Positions 8,619 through 44,820 of a stretch of 64,000 bases of DNA are shown in pieces. Source of the stretch: Parcubacteria group bacterium ADurb.Bin192 (lineage in GTDB: Bacteria; Patescibacteriota; Patescibacteriia; 2-12-FULL-60-25). The position numbers were made by a program, and so were the translations under genes. How positions within the stretch are numbered: position 1 is the stretch's first letter; every line of letters starts with the position of its first letter. The notes under the pieces were generated by a model. It did not search any database. It saw only the letters and a list, made by a program, of their open reading frames with translations, and was not told the DNA's origin. The stretch lies in assembly GCA_002070095.1 (NCBI GenBank), contig MWCR01000006.1:1-64000 (forward strand). The letters are read 5' to 3'.

Positions 8619-9140
8619 ATGAATGCCATCATAGGCTTGGTCGGGCCCAGCGGTTCCGGTAAATCAACTCTTATTCAAGAGATGGTTAAGATTTTTCCAA
8701 AGATTGAGATTGCCAAATCACTGACCACCAGACCGCGGAGAAGTGATGAGGATTCTTTGTTTTATGATTTTATCAGCCTTCAGGCATTGCGCTTGTTGGA
8801 AAAGGAAGGGCGGCTGACTCATGTATCTGAATACGCGGGTTATTATTATTCCAATGATAAACAGTACCTCGATTCTTTACTGAAAAATCATTACGGTATT
8901 ATGGCTTTGGTGGAATCCGGAGTTGAATACTTGAGGCAGTCCGGCTATGAAGTCAGAATAATTAAAATTCAGCCGGCAGATTACGCTTTGACGGCCGACA
9001 TTGGGCGGCAAAAAGCCGACCGTCAAAGAGCTTTGAGTCATATTAAATCAGATTTTGAGATAATTAATTCTTTTCAGCCCGGAGGATTGGAAAAATCAGT
9101 TAAGACTTTAACTGATTTTATAAATTCTTGGCTTGTTTAA
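8619..9140 (+). CDS. Guanylate kinase-like nucleotide kinase, short and divergent
   Basis: A 173-residue P-loop kinase most like GMP kinase, which would make GDP from GMP. Seen: P-loop GPSGSGKST at 9-17, the TTRPRR motif of the GMP-binding lid, and a GYYYSN segment corresponding to the usual G-x-Y-Y-G-T. Deviations: the GExxGxDY motif reads DEDSLFYDF, so the conserved Gly and Asp are missing, and the protein is about 20-30 residues shorter than typical Gmk. The start at 8619 is the ATG directly before the P-loop strand; earlier in-frame ATGs run through the tRNA. It overlaps the convergent gene at 9118 by 23 nt. It could be the genome's Gmk or a paralogue with altered specificity. Confidence 0.75.
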   Translation: MNAIIGLVGPSGSGKSTLIQEMVKIFPKIEIAKSLTTRPRRSDEDSLFYDFISLQALRLLEKEGRLTHVSEYAGYYYSNDKQYLDSLLKNHYGIMALVESGVEYLRQSGYEVRIIKIQPADYALTADIGRQKADRQRALSHIKSDFEIINSFQPGGLEKSVKTLTDFINSWLV

Positions 9141-9996
9141 AAGCCTTAAGCAGAGCTTGATGGTCTAGGTTGGAGATAGATAACAAATAAAACAGTTCCG
9201 GGCCTTTTAGCAGCAGTATCGAGCCTGTGGAGCTTATTTTGGAGTAACAGCGCGGTTTGGGAATTTCATTTTTTAAATATTGGTACATGTCTTTAACTGA
9301 TTGCGCGGCCAAAAGCATGTCCGGTCCGATTTGATATTTTAATAAAATTTTGGCCTCCAGATAGCTTAATATTTTAATTTCTTCCAGTTCATCAAAATTG
9401 ATGGTTATCAATGAACGGTTTTCGGGCTGATGAATATTTTTGACTTTCAAATCCAGAATGATTTGCTGGTTTTTGAGTTCATAACCGGGCAATTGCCGGT
9501 CTGCAAGCTGGTTGATTCTTTGCAGCAGGGGATGTATGGCCGGCACCAGTCTTTTACGGATAAAGATGTAAAAAGACATCAAGATTAACTGTGAGTAAGA
9601 CAGAGCGCACAGGGTCAGGGGCTTGCCGGCGTTTGACGCGACCAATAGATAAAGGATGCCGGACAAAAACAAGACGAATAACGGATAACTGATCAGATTC
9701 ACGTAAGCCCGCCAGAGAGCTATATGACCGGCCGTTTTGGACAATCGATTGGCATCGTTCGAACTCTGGACATGGTTTGATCGCATGGCTCGGCTCTTGT
9801 TTATCCAAAACAATCCGGTTTCAATCAAACCCAAAGCCAAAATGCCGGCCGCCAGCCAAAGAATGATTTCCAAGATGGAACAAGGAGAGTCATCAAGCAG
9901 TGTTAAATAGAAGATGGCCAGCCATAAAAATACGCCAAAAGTCGCAATAGCCAAACCGGTTGACGCTTCAGCTATTAAACGAAATTTGATAAACAT
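9118..9996 (-). CDS. Membrane protein of unknown function downstream of the Kef-type antiporter
   Basis: A 292-residue protein with four predicted membrane helices (about 10-34, 42-64, 97-118 and 124-147), followed by a soluble C-terminal domain of about 140 residues. I recognise no family motif. It lies 3 nt after the antiporter gene on the same strand, so the two form an operon. A regulatory or accessory role for the transporter is possible but only inferred from position. The tail overlaps the convergent kinase gene by 23 nt. Confidence 0.75.
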   Translation of the reverse strand: MFIKFRLIAEASTGLAIATFGVFLWLAIFYLTLLDDSPCSILEIILWLAAGILALGLIETGLFWINKSRAMRSNHVQSSNDANRLSKTAGHIALWRAYVNLISYPLFVLFLSGILYLLVASNAGKPLTLCALSYSQLILMSFYIFIRKRLVPAIHPLLQRINQLADRQLPGYELKNQQIILDLKVKNIHQPENRSLITINFDELEEIKILSYLEAKILLKYQIGPDMLLAAQSVKDMYQYLKNEIPKPRCYSKISSTGSILLLKGPELFYLLSISNLDHQALLKAFKQAKNL

Positions 9997-20737: not shown

Positions 20738-20766
20738 TTGACTTTAGCCCAATAACAACGTAATCT
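20738..20766 (+). promoter_or_regulatory. metG promoter
   Basis: TTGACT (20738-20743), 17-nt spacer, TAATCT (20761-20766). The metG ATG begins exactly 7 nt after the -10 box, predicting a leaderless mRNA. Confidence 0.78.
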
Positions 20767-39785: not shown

Positions 39786-39824
39786 CAGTCATGTCATTGC
39801 GAGTGAGTCCGACGAGCGCGGTAC

Positions 39825-39887
39825 GGGTCGCCCGCACCAGATCCTTCATTAGCACTCAGGATGACGGGGCGACCTCGGAGTGACATG
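39825..39887. repeat. Family D repeat (GGTCGCCCGCACCAGATCCTTCAT...), copy 1
   Basis: About 63 bp, nearly identical to 51356-51417. Lies in the 536-nt gene-free region 39786-40321 that contains only repeats and the dnaG upstream sequence. Confidence 0.82.
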
Positions 39888-39910
39888 ACTGTGGTTTTTA
39901 ATGGTTTAGT

Positions 39911-39976
39911 GATGAGATCCTGAACCCCCACTATGTCTTACGACTTCGAGGGGCACGGTGAATTCAGGATGACGAG
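39911..39976. repeat. Family B palindrome with internal insert, copy
   Basis: GATGAGATCCTGAAC ... GAATTCAGGATGACGAGT with about 35 bp (containing TATGTCTTACGACTTCGAGG) between the arms. The same composite is at 51426-51487, and the insert appears inverted at about 55626-55656. Confidence 0.8.
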
Positions 39977-39986
39977 TCAACAATCA

Positions 39987-40114
39987 TGTCATTGCGAGGA
40001 GTGAGTCCGACGAGTGACGTGGCACGGCTTTCGCGAACGCCGTGCCGTGGCAATCTGCTTAGACGACTAGCCAATAAGCGAGATTGCCGCGTCGTCGGGC
40101 TCCTCGCAATGACA
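39987..40114. repeat. Family A palindromic repeat, copy 3, with nested hairpin in the left arm
   Basis: 128 bp with the same ends and the same-orientation core as copy 2. Here the GC-rich nested hairpin (GGCACGGCTTTCGCGAACGCCGTGCC) lies in the left arm instead of the right. Confidence 0.88.
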
Positions 40115-40166
40115 TGACTATAATCCCCCTTTGATTCCCCCCTTTATCAAGGGGGTTTATAGCTTT

Positions 40167-40268
40167 AACGTAGGACGTTATGTCCCGACACTCGCAAAAA
40201 AATACGCTCGATCGGGATCCCGATCGCAGCATCGGGATACGTGAGAGGACGCGAGGTACGTTAGGTAC
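40167..40268. repeat. Family C repeat, plus orientation
   Basis: Contains GGACGTTATGTCCCGACACTCGC, then a palindrome GATCGGGATCCCGATC, then ACGTGAGAGGACGCGAGGTACG. The reverse complement is found at 52760-52860. Confidence 0.8.
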
Positions 40269-40321
40269 GTTAAGTAAGTCAAGTTCTTGTCAGCCACCGA
40301 ACCACAGTCTAAGCTAGTCCC

Positions 40322-42183: not shown

Positions 42184-43485
42184 ATGCCCACCAATAAGAA
42201 ATCTTCTTCCGCGTCCCGCTCATCAAAAAACACGGCTCGCGGTTCTTCCAAAATTAAGGCCAAAAAAAACCCGCCCAAAAAACAGGTTGCCAAAAAACCC
42301 GCGCCGTCCGCCAAACACAAGCCGGTTCAGAAAGCAAAAAAAGCGCCGGTCAAGCAACAGCAGCCGCCCAAGACGCCGTATATAAAAACTCCGCCTCCTT
42401 CGGACGAGGATTTGGAGAATCTTTTTTTAAAAGCCAGAACGCGCAGTTTCTTGACTGAAAATGAAATTCTTTACGCTTTTCCGGATATCGAAGACTACAT
42501 ACCGGTTTACGAAGCATTTATAGATCGCCTCGATGCTTCGGGTATCGCGGTAGTGGAAATGAAGGAAGGCATCTTAGGCAAAAAACAAGACCGCAATCTA
42601 ATCCTTGAACAGATGAACAGCGCGGTGCCTGAATTCGGCATTAAAGTCGATCCTTTTGATTTAACGGCTGATCACATCCAAATTTATTTAAGAGAAATCG
42701 GAAAAATACCGTTGCTTAAAGCGGATGAAGAAATCGCTTTGGCCAAAAGAAAAGAAAAAGGGGATAAGGAAGCAGAGAAAAAACTGATTGAGGCCAACCT
42801 GCGTTTGGTAGTATCCATCGCCAAAAAATTCATGGGCAAATCCCTGGCTTTATTGGATTTGATCCAAGAAGGCAATATCGGCTTGTTTAGAGCGGTTAAA
42901 AAATTCGAATACAGAAAAGGCTACAAATTCTCCACTTACGCCACCTGGTGGATCAGACAGGCCATCACCCGCGCTCTGGCCGACCAAAGCAGAACCATCC
43001 GCATCCCGGTGCACATGGTGGAAACCATTAACAAGTTCCAGCAGATAGAAAGACAGTTGATTCAAGATCTGGGACGTGAGCCGTTACCTGAAGAAATCGC
43101 GGCCGAAATGGGCGAAGAAGTGGACAAGGTTCGCCACATTATCAAAATTTCACAAGATACGGTTTCCCTGGAAACTCCGGTGGGCGACGAAGATGAAGAT
43201 TCGGCTTTGGAAGATTTTATCGAAGACATCAAAAACGTCACTCCTGACCGCGCGGCCGGTTTGCAACTCTTAAAAGATTACGTTAAAGACATTATTAAAG
43301 ATCTTTCACCCCGCGAACAAAAAATTCTGGAAATGCGCTTTGGTTTGGTGGATGGCGTGGGTCACACCTTGGAAGAAGTAGGTAAAGAATTTGATGTTAC
43401 CCGTGAACGTATCCGTCAGATCGAATCCAAGGCTCTGGAAAAAATTCAACAGCACCCGTTGATCAAGCGTTTGGCAGATTACTAA
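42184..43485 (+). CDS. rpoD: Primary RNA polymerase sigma factor (sigma-70/SigA)
   Basis: 433 residues. The N-terminal 75 residues are Lys/Ser/Pro-rich and low complexity. Then a region 1.1-like piece (about 78-130); region 1.2 [16 protein letters not shown]; region 2 with [20 protein letters not shown] and [15 protein letters not shown] (-10 recognition and melting); region 3; and region 4 with [10 protein letters not shown] (-35 recognition helix). This fits the TTGACN/TATAAT-like promoters seen across the window. A TGCTAACCA sequence 6 nt before the ATG may be its -10. Confidence 0.97.
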
Positions 43486-43558
43486 CGTACATAACGTCCT
43501 ACGTCGCTCGTCCCAGTCGTCCCACGTCAGAAACCTTCCACCGTCCTAAACCCTCCGT

Positions 43559-43583
43559 CATCCTGAACTTGTTTCAGGATCTC
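43559..43583. repeat. Family B palindrome copy after rpoD
   Basis: TCATCCTGAACTTG...TTTCAGGATCT; the arms ATCCTGAA/TTCAGGAT are conserved and the loop differs from other copies. Confidence 0.75.
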
Positions 43584-43610
43584 AACACTAAACCATTAAA
43601 ACCACAGTCA

Positions 43611-43649
43611 TGTCATTGCGAGGAGTTCGACGACGTGGCAATCTGCTTA
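43611..43649. repeat. Truncated family A repeat (left half only)
   Basis: TGTCATTGCGAGGAGTTCGACGACGTGGCAATCTGCTTA matches the left half of the family A elements and stops in the core. Confidence 0.75.
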
Positions 43650-43729
43650 TTAAACAAATGCATAATATAAATCCAAAAATTTATATTTGATATTTGAAAA
43701 TTGGTTCGATATTTATCCACAGGCTGTCA

Positions 43730-43758
43730 TTGACGGCCTTTTCGGTTTGCTCTAATCT
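43730..43758 (+). promoter_or_regulatory. Promoter of the large structured RNA
   Basis: TTGACG (43730-43735), 17-nt spacer, TAATCT (43753-43758). The -10 hexamer and spacer length are identical to the metG promoter, which calibrates the start to about 43766. Confidence 0.75.
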
Positions 43759-43765
43759 TTTATTC

Positions 43766-44556
43766 TCGGCACCTTGAGAATCCGGGAATGATCTTGTCGG
43801 GTAAAACCGGCCATCTATAAGCGAAAACGGAGCGCCTCAGCCCAAGGGCAATATTGAGGACTTTCCGCAAGCCAAGATGCGAGCCACAGCTCGAAGATAA
43901 ACCGGGCAGAGTTCGAGTGAATGCACCCGAAACCCTGAATACGAGCGTCTGTCAGAAAAAACAAACAACATGACTGAGACTGATGAGTTAGTAGGGCGAC
44001 CGAAAGCTTACCGTCTGACGCCGTAATCAGAATGTACGATGGACGTGATGGCCAACCCATCGCAGAAATCGCACAGTGAGACGATCAAGAGGGATGACGC
44101 GCGACTAACAACGCGCATGCGAATGGGGGAAACCCTAATAGCTAGTCCCGAATGAAAATCTCGGTCCAGGGAGAAACAACCAACTCGAACTCGGTCTGTA
44201 GTTGTATGCCAAGACCAAAGGCGCAAGCCCAAAAGTCAAAGCACGCAGAATGCAGAGACGGCACCAAGCAGCAGCCACCGCCGCCCTCGCAACCTGAACG
44301 GTCGTAGCCAATCCATCGACGCGACCGCCAAGGCAATCGGTTACCCAGCCGATTGAATCATTCACCCAGCAGTGGATGAACTGCAAATACAACTTAAGAG
44401 AAGGATTAAACGGCGGCGACAGACCCGCCACTGAGCACAGCGACAAAGGGCCGGTTCGGTCCCAAAGCGACTTAGCTCAGTCCGACTCTCACATACTCAA
44501 GTGTGCCACCTACTTCGCGTGCGCTGTGCCAAAACACGGCGCCTTCTTTTTTTACT
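43766..44556 (+). ncRNA. Candidate large structured non-coding RNA, about 790 nt, family not identified
   Basis: Stretch between rpoD and tRNA-Asn with no plausible coding sequence, bounded by a sigma-70 promoter and an intrinsic terminator on the same strand. Many local helices are visible: CCTCA/TGAGG enclosing GCCC/GGGC (43835-43859), GTCTGTCA with TGAC..AGAC (about 43947-43980), CGATGG/CCATCG (44037-44062), CGGTCG/CGACCG (44299-44327), CAATCGG/CCGATTG (44334-44355) and ACTGAGC/GCTCAGT (44430-44481). Loops are purine-rich, including GAAA and GCAA tetraloops, on this strand only. Size and position next to a tRNA recall the large ornate RNAs GOLLD and ROOL, but I cannot match it to either. 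The tmRNA and RNase P signatures are absent. Confidence 0.72.
44521..44556 (+). terminator. Strong terminator of the structured RNA
   Basis: An 8-bp stem GCGCTGTG/CACGGCGC (one T-G wobble) with loop CCAAAA, then CTTC and a T7 run. Confidence 0.88.
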
Positions 44557-44638
44557 AAAAATCAGATCATTTTAGATCTTGCAAAAAATAAGATAACAGT
44601 TTATTATATTCAACGCCGTAAATAAGCCAAAAATCCTG

Positions 44639-44651
44639 TTCCGGGGTAGCT
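44639..44651 (+). repeat. Duplicate of the tRNA-Asn 5' end
   Basis: TTCCGGGGTAGCT is repeated exactly 70 bp downstream at 44709-44721, where it begins tRNA-Asn. The upstream copy continues into a different sequence with GTAGCT/AGCTAC and CCCAC/GTGGG stems and a CCCGG end, not a functional tRNA. Confidence 0.75.
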
Positions 44652-44709
44652 TCCCACTTCGCTAATTTAGCTACGTGGGACAAGACGCTGCCCGGCTATT
44701 CAACCCTAT

Positions 44710-44784
44710 TCCGGGGTAGCTCAGCGGTAGAGCAGTTGACTGTTAATCAATTGGTCGTGGGTTCGAACCCCACCCCCGGAGCCA
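44710..44784 (+). tRNA. tRNA-Asn (anticodon GTT), CCA encoded
   Basis: Acceptor TCCGGGG/CCCCGGA, D-arm GCTC/GAGC, anticodon loop CTGTTAA (anticodon GTT), T-arm GTGGG/CCCAC with TTCGAAC, discriminator G and templated CCA. All arms pair fully. Confidence 0.96.
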
Positions 44785-44794
44785 TAATACAATG

Positions 44795-44820
44795 CCCCAC
44801 GCGAGTGGGGTTTTGTGTTT
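44795..44820 (+). terminator. Terminator after tRNA-Asn
   Basis: CCCCAC/GTGGGG 6-bp stem with a GCGA loop, followed by TTTTGTGTTTT. Confidence 0.82.

Follow-up and report, generated by a model that had tools for sequence, protein, structure and literature searches.

Large housekeeping RNAs such as RNase P RNA and tmRNA have ends that are closed by long-range pairing, and the members of the GOLLD class have a variable part in addition to what they share. In known members of GOLLD the common part is universally conserved, and the RNA assembles into a homo-oligomeric nanocage (PMC12286853). The ROOL class reaches in one strain an abundance equal to that of 16S rRNA (PMC12286853). Here we compare with these systems an RNA locus in a stretch of 64,000 nt from Parcubacteria group bacterium ADurb.Bin192 (GCA_002070095.1, contig MWCR01000006.1, positions 1-64,000, forward strand), which we call the window. 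The host is an uncultured bacterium with a small genome (G000), and the locus, W in the following, occupies positions 43766-44553 of the + strand in a neighbourhood formed by dnaG, rpoD, a single tRNA-Asn and an ABC transporter, with the housekeeping gene rpoD adjoining it. The open-access literature searched gave no description of an RNA of this kind from the lineage. The elements of the locus are the following, all on the + strand and in window coordinates:

42184-43485, +, rpoD, primary sigma factor and upstream neighbour (ORF of 433 aa; orthologues in 53/57 genomes)
43721-43739, +, hairpin that by its sequence looks like the rpoD terminator and holds the -35 of the W promoter
43730-43758, +, W promoter TTGACG-17-TAATCT (TTGACG 43730-43735, TAATCT 43753-43758)
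43766-44553, +, W transcription unit, large structured RNA of ~785 nt (start inferred within a few nt)
43768-43778, +, 5' strand of the terminal helix P1, GGCACCTTGAG, containing the start motif GCACCTTGAGA (pair probability 1.0)
43909-43918, +, 5' strand of a long-range 10-bp helix, GAGTTCGAGT (partner 44183-44192; pair probability 0.97)
44183-44192, +, 3' strand of the same helix, ACTCGAACTC (partner 43909-43918)
44496-44507, +, 3' strand of P1, CTCAAGTGTGCC, with one bulged U (pairs with 43768-43778)
44503-44515, +, 3' linker GTGCCACCTACTT, resembling GTGCAACYACTC of sister RNAs
44521-44553, +, intrinsic terminator (8-bp GC stem 44521-44528/44535-44542, CTTC, T7 at 44547-44553)
44579-44607, +, promoter-like site of the downstream tRNA's own, TTGCAA-17-TATTAT (such sites are at chance level in the region)
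44710-44784, +, tRNA-Asn (GTT), downstream neighbour

This anatomy agrees with the original prediction, made from the sequence of the window, of a large RNA with its own promoter and terminator. The -10 and the 17-nt spacing recur at 20738, presumably the metG promoter with which that of W had been compared; the 8-bp GC hairpin with its T7 tail was confirmed at 44521-44553; and the claim that no plausible reading frame spans the RNA is borne out by the longest ORFs within W, for which Pfam gives nothing even at E<=1. The embedding of the -35 in a hairpin resembling the rpoD terminator is found also in three related genomes (G002, G003 and G005). We consider it very probable that W is a genuine structured RNA gene and stands alone.

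Searches for DNA similarity gave no match for W among 50,697 phage records and nothing convincing among 96 relatives, phages and plasmids. Those of its weak 3'-end matches in relatives that were inspected proved to be due to chance, and four matches of an exact 16-mer in viral contigs, the flanks of which are unlike W, were taken as chance too. Since DNA similarity gave no homologue, the rpoD loci of relatives were read downstream, where the original prediction had suggested collecting homologues, and four species of the same genus (Patescibacteria, near Ca. Uhrbacteria; G001, G002, G003 and G005) were found to have ORF-less structured units in the gap between rpoD and tRNA-Asn, as tandem pairs in G001 and G003 and with a promoter and a terminator on each unit. 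The units are 290-789 nt long and have fold z scores of -1.9 to -6.2; those of the four species, each folding better than shuffles, lie at -1.9 to -4.7. All of them start with GCACCTT or GCACTTG right after the -10, and most have a linker like GTGCAACYACTC at the 3' end. The complementarity of their ends has p values, which are not independent of each other, of 0.0025-0.012 (W, L033a, L033b, L036a and L036b), 0.036 (L034) and 0.086 (L035). W fits the traits of this rpoD-downstream group in site, promoter with GCACYTT start, terminal helix, GTGC..CYACTC-like linker and terminator. The five carriers form one clade on the rpoD tree (support 98/94). The unit is absent from the site in G004 and G008, where rpoD directly adjoins tRNA-Asn, and in G006, where the site holds an open frame, so that it is not essential in the genus. 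As a separate observation, tRNA-Asn itself is split by an insert at three loci, L034:3-599 (G002), L045 (G029) and L052 (G018); the insert of G002 contains a group I intron (RF00028, 72 bits).

The start motif extends well beyond these RNAs. The pattern TTGAC-N-TANNNT-N-GCACCTT occurs at 39 sites in 41 genomes of the family versus 2 in the reversed control, with GCACCTT lying 4-9 nt past the -10 of TTGAC-type promoters; two of the sites lie in ADurb.Bin192 (C9:18298-18337 and C14:25268-25307). Because it precedes 16S rRNA, tRNA-Gln, rpsL and many apparent mRNAs (the mRNAs, that of rpsL included, having been identified by eye), GCACCTT is a general promoter-linked motif and not a mark specific to W. 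Its placement suggests that it is possibly a promoter element, or an initially transcribed element, of the lineage, and in the rpoD-downstream RNAs it doubles as the 5' strand of P1. A longer version, GCACYTTGAGA, precedes the large RNAs of three carriers of the genus, out of five, and that of G020, a member of another genus; in a class-wide search for promoter plus GCACYTTGAGA, the matches examined outside the family were not RNA genes, since they were located within or ahead of long open frames or had no sensible promoter. The same start motif was seen on the reverse strand of L072 (G036), upstream of an rpmE-like gene, at a stretch of ~620 nt with no obvious protein, the ends of which have an 11-bp match (ACATCAGGAGA/TCTCCTGATGT) and the fold z of which is only -1.6.

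Covariation could be followed in three sister RNAs, L033a, L034 and L035, of which L033a is clearly homologous to the other two. The 3' domain common to the three comprises 171 positions with 92% of cells paired, and contains 13 pairs changed on both sides, a number reached by 0/500 shuffles and compared with 0-4 in slid structures; in its helix 1 all pairs are compensated (5/5). Between L034 and L035, which are 87% identical, 181/207 pairs of the L035 MFE structure are kept, permuted substitutions keeping 174 on average and 181 at most. The covariation of the 3' domain, drawn from three sequences of which two are close, offers good but limited evidence that selection maintains structure in these sister RNAs. 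Out of 381 genomes in the class, a covariance model of this domain (R1) matches only G002, G003 and G005; it does not match W, its best score there being 4.4 bits with filters off, and L036 is likewise unmatched. For the fold of W, the comparative support is that of P1, the 5' strand of which coincides with the promoter-associated motif.

No alignable homologue of the W interior was found among relatives: the identity of W with its syntenic counterparts is the same as with shuffled sequence, and global alignment gives a z of ~2.3 at best. W, L036a/b and L033b cannot be aligned with one another in their interiors, k-mers common between lineages reveal no clear conserved core, and a MAFFT alignment of all 3' ends is poor. 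Between ADurb.Bin192 and the four other carriers, RNase P RNA is 83-87% identical and rpoD 80-81%. That the interior is unalignable despite a conserved RNase P RNA means either extremely fast divergence or replacement of the RNA, and on sequence grounds the homology of the W interior to those of its neighbours is putative only.

Replacement is central to the explanation that competes best with ours, namely that the site downstream of rpoD accepts replaceable cassettes, with unrelated structured RNAs (mobile or defence-related, for example) being swapped in and having only the promoter and the ends in common. Such swapping would fit the lack of alignment between W, L036a/b and L033b in their interiors, and the tandem units of G001 and G003, the variation in length from 290 to 789 nt and the sister lineages without an insert fit it as well. 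The carriers, however, form a single clade, the position and promoter type of the units are constant, L033a is clearly a homologue of L034/L035 and the phage records gave no match, so that we regard the swapping of cassettes as unlikely, if still deserving attention.

We return to the reading of W as a stand-alone structured RNA gene and to its fold. The MFE of W is -275.4 kcal/mol (z -6.45 versus shuffles); once the terminator is removed it is -261.8 (z -8.5), with 0/20 shuffles as good, and the fold is specific to the + strand (z -6.3, versus -2.5 on the - strand). A makes up 56% of the unpaired bases and T 10%, a composition beyond that of controls from the same genome (A/T of 45/22% in the RNase P stretch and 39-46/18-21% in 23S rRNA stretches). 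The longest helix is 10 bp, and the complementarity behind P1 exceeds that of shuffled 3' segments (p=0.006). Among the helices originally listed, ACTGAGC/GCTCAGT, CAATCGG/CCGATTG, CGGTCG/CGACCG and GCGCG/CGCGC recur with mean pair probabilities of 0.91-1.00, whereas CGATGG/CCATCG has 0.00 and is replaced by a predicted, shifted pairing GTGATGG/CCATCGC; both P1 and the helix 43909-43918/44183-44192 had been overlooked.

Other ORF-less gaps of the genome reach z -5 to -12, and for this reason the fold z alone is weak evidence here; most of these gaps contain 14-25-bp inverted repeats, have the signal on + and - alike, or coincide with rRNA or RNase P. The frequency of such gaps would suit the notion that W folds well by chance and either has no function or is a protein gene that escaped detection, and a 112-codon open frame is indeed present on its minus strand. 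Against this stand the strand asymmetry, the unpaired composition, the helices of <=10 bp, the promoter and terminator, P1 and the syntenic structured units with their covariation, which leave this reading highly unlikely. A scan of 449 kb (31%) of G000 revealed no second copy resembling W; the gaps of the most RNA-like appearance proved to be rRNA, RNase P or small coding genes, and inverted repeats are present in most of the others with low z. Two other places in the window fold well on both strands: the intergenic stretch 39786-40321 before dnaG, with very strong hairpins (240-nt z -11.1 and -7.9), and 8900-9160, inside a guanylate-kinase-like gene, where folding is unusually good (z -5.5 and -5.1).

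A separate giant RNA is present in two other genera of the family: at L078:1535-2320 in G034 (785 nt, z -8.0) and on the reverse strand of L193 in G020 (628 nt as delimited, z -6.0), in both cases adjoining a trypsin-like protease gene, as judged by eye. Global alignment shows them to be homologous (z 7.7); by blastn only their first 80 nt are alike, and a long hairpin is kept there. A covariance model of this 5' hairpin (R2) finds only G020 and G034 among 381 genomes and does not match W.

The location of W between rpoD and tRNA-Asn in 5/5 carriers might suggest a cis-acting element, which would serve tRNA-Asn as a long 5' leader or attenuator or belong to rpoD as a long 3' UTR. Yet an intrinsic terminator precedes tRNA-Asn, for which a promoter-like site of its own is present, the W promoter is overlapped at its start by a hairpin resembling a terminator, rpoD and tRNA-Asn are adjacent without a W-type unit in G004 and G008, and each tandem unit has its own promoter and terminator; the probability of a cis-acting element is in our opinion very slight.

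How, then, might a stand-alone W work? Proceeding from its gene anatomy, fold statistics and synteny, and from the covariation of its sisters, we infer an expression level, an action in trans and an assembly. W may be transcribed strongly, because the GCACCTT start motif is found also at the promoters of the 16S rRNA operon, tRNA-Gln and rpsL, and its zipped ends and terminator would produce a discrete, nuclease-resistant RNA. This RNA would act in trans, and not on rpoD or tRNA-Asn. On the whole we lean towards a stand-alone large structured RNA that is trans-acting, highly expressed and structural. It could then serve as a protein scaffold, or build a self-assembling RNA complex like ROOL and GOLLD; a role in scaffolding or self-assembly is a possibility to which we give somewhat less than even weight, and the data analysed contain no pointer to a partner protein or target. 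A useful role is suggested by the persistence of a chromosomal RNA in small-genome Patescibacteria, in which space is scarce. Selection might act only on the overall fold and the ends, and the interior would therefore be free to change quickly.

In evolutionary terms, W looks, by its sequence features, like an undescribed, narrowly distributed and very fast-evolving large structured RNA. We propose, as a rather doubtful extension, a new class of giant RNAs in which compactness and an outer frame of promoter, zipped ends, linker and terminator would be kept while the interior changes faster than rpoD and RNase P RNA. If true, this might be the pattern expected of a self-assembling RNA shell, or of an RNA that takes part in an arms race against phages. 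Ends and foldability that are retained around an unalignable interior, all in one genus, run contrary to the slow evolution usually expected of large structured RNAs, and would account for the failure of homology searches to find such genes.

It remains to compare W with the described families. None of the 4227 Rfam families matches W at E<=10 (window 43480-44800), including GOLLD, ROOL, OLE, RNase P and tmRNA, the five for which a search had been proposed, and six related loci gave no relevant match at E<=5. The sole RNase P RNA match of the genome is elsewhere (C7:14186-14686, 176.7 bits, class A model), as is its tmRNA (C3:29849-30242, 103.6 bits), ARAGORN finding none in the window. Comparable size, a multi-branched fold, A-rich loops and a nearby tRNA would be compatible with a very divergent member of GOLLD, ROOL or OLE, but the lack of Rfam matches for W and its related loci, the housekeeping context and the absence of a phage match make this extremely improbable. 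Of the original interpretation, the large structured RNA gene, possibly of an undescribed CPR class, is upheld by folding, composition, syntenic relatives and the covariation of these; kinship with GOLLD or ROOL is not supported, the locus being a housekeeping one and not a phage tRNA island, with no relevant phage or plasmid match and no Rfam match at E<=10.

Like RNase P RNA and tmRNA, W is large, structured and closed by a terminal helix; its interior differs from RNase P RNA, which is well conserved in the genus. With OLE it has in common that it is a large structured chromosomal RNA, but it has no match to the covariance model and belongs to another lineage. GOLLD resembles W in being ornate and ~800 nt long; W differs in lacking a covariance-model match and a context of phage, prophage or tRNA island, and shares with its syntenic counterparts no core beyond the terminal helix and the linker. 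ROOL is also a large, multi-branched, stand-alone bacterial RNA without known protein partner and often near tRNA genes, and its high abundance may be paralleled by the rRNA-like start motif of W, which suggests strong expression. In contrast to ROOL, W has no covariance-model match and lies outside phage or prophage, its interior is not kept even within the genus, and its relatives are confined to one family of Patescibacteria. While membership of W in either class fails on covariance models and context, ROOL and GOLLD may, by analogy, be considered its nearest functional counterparts.
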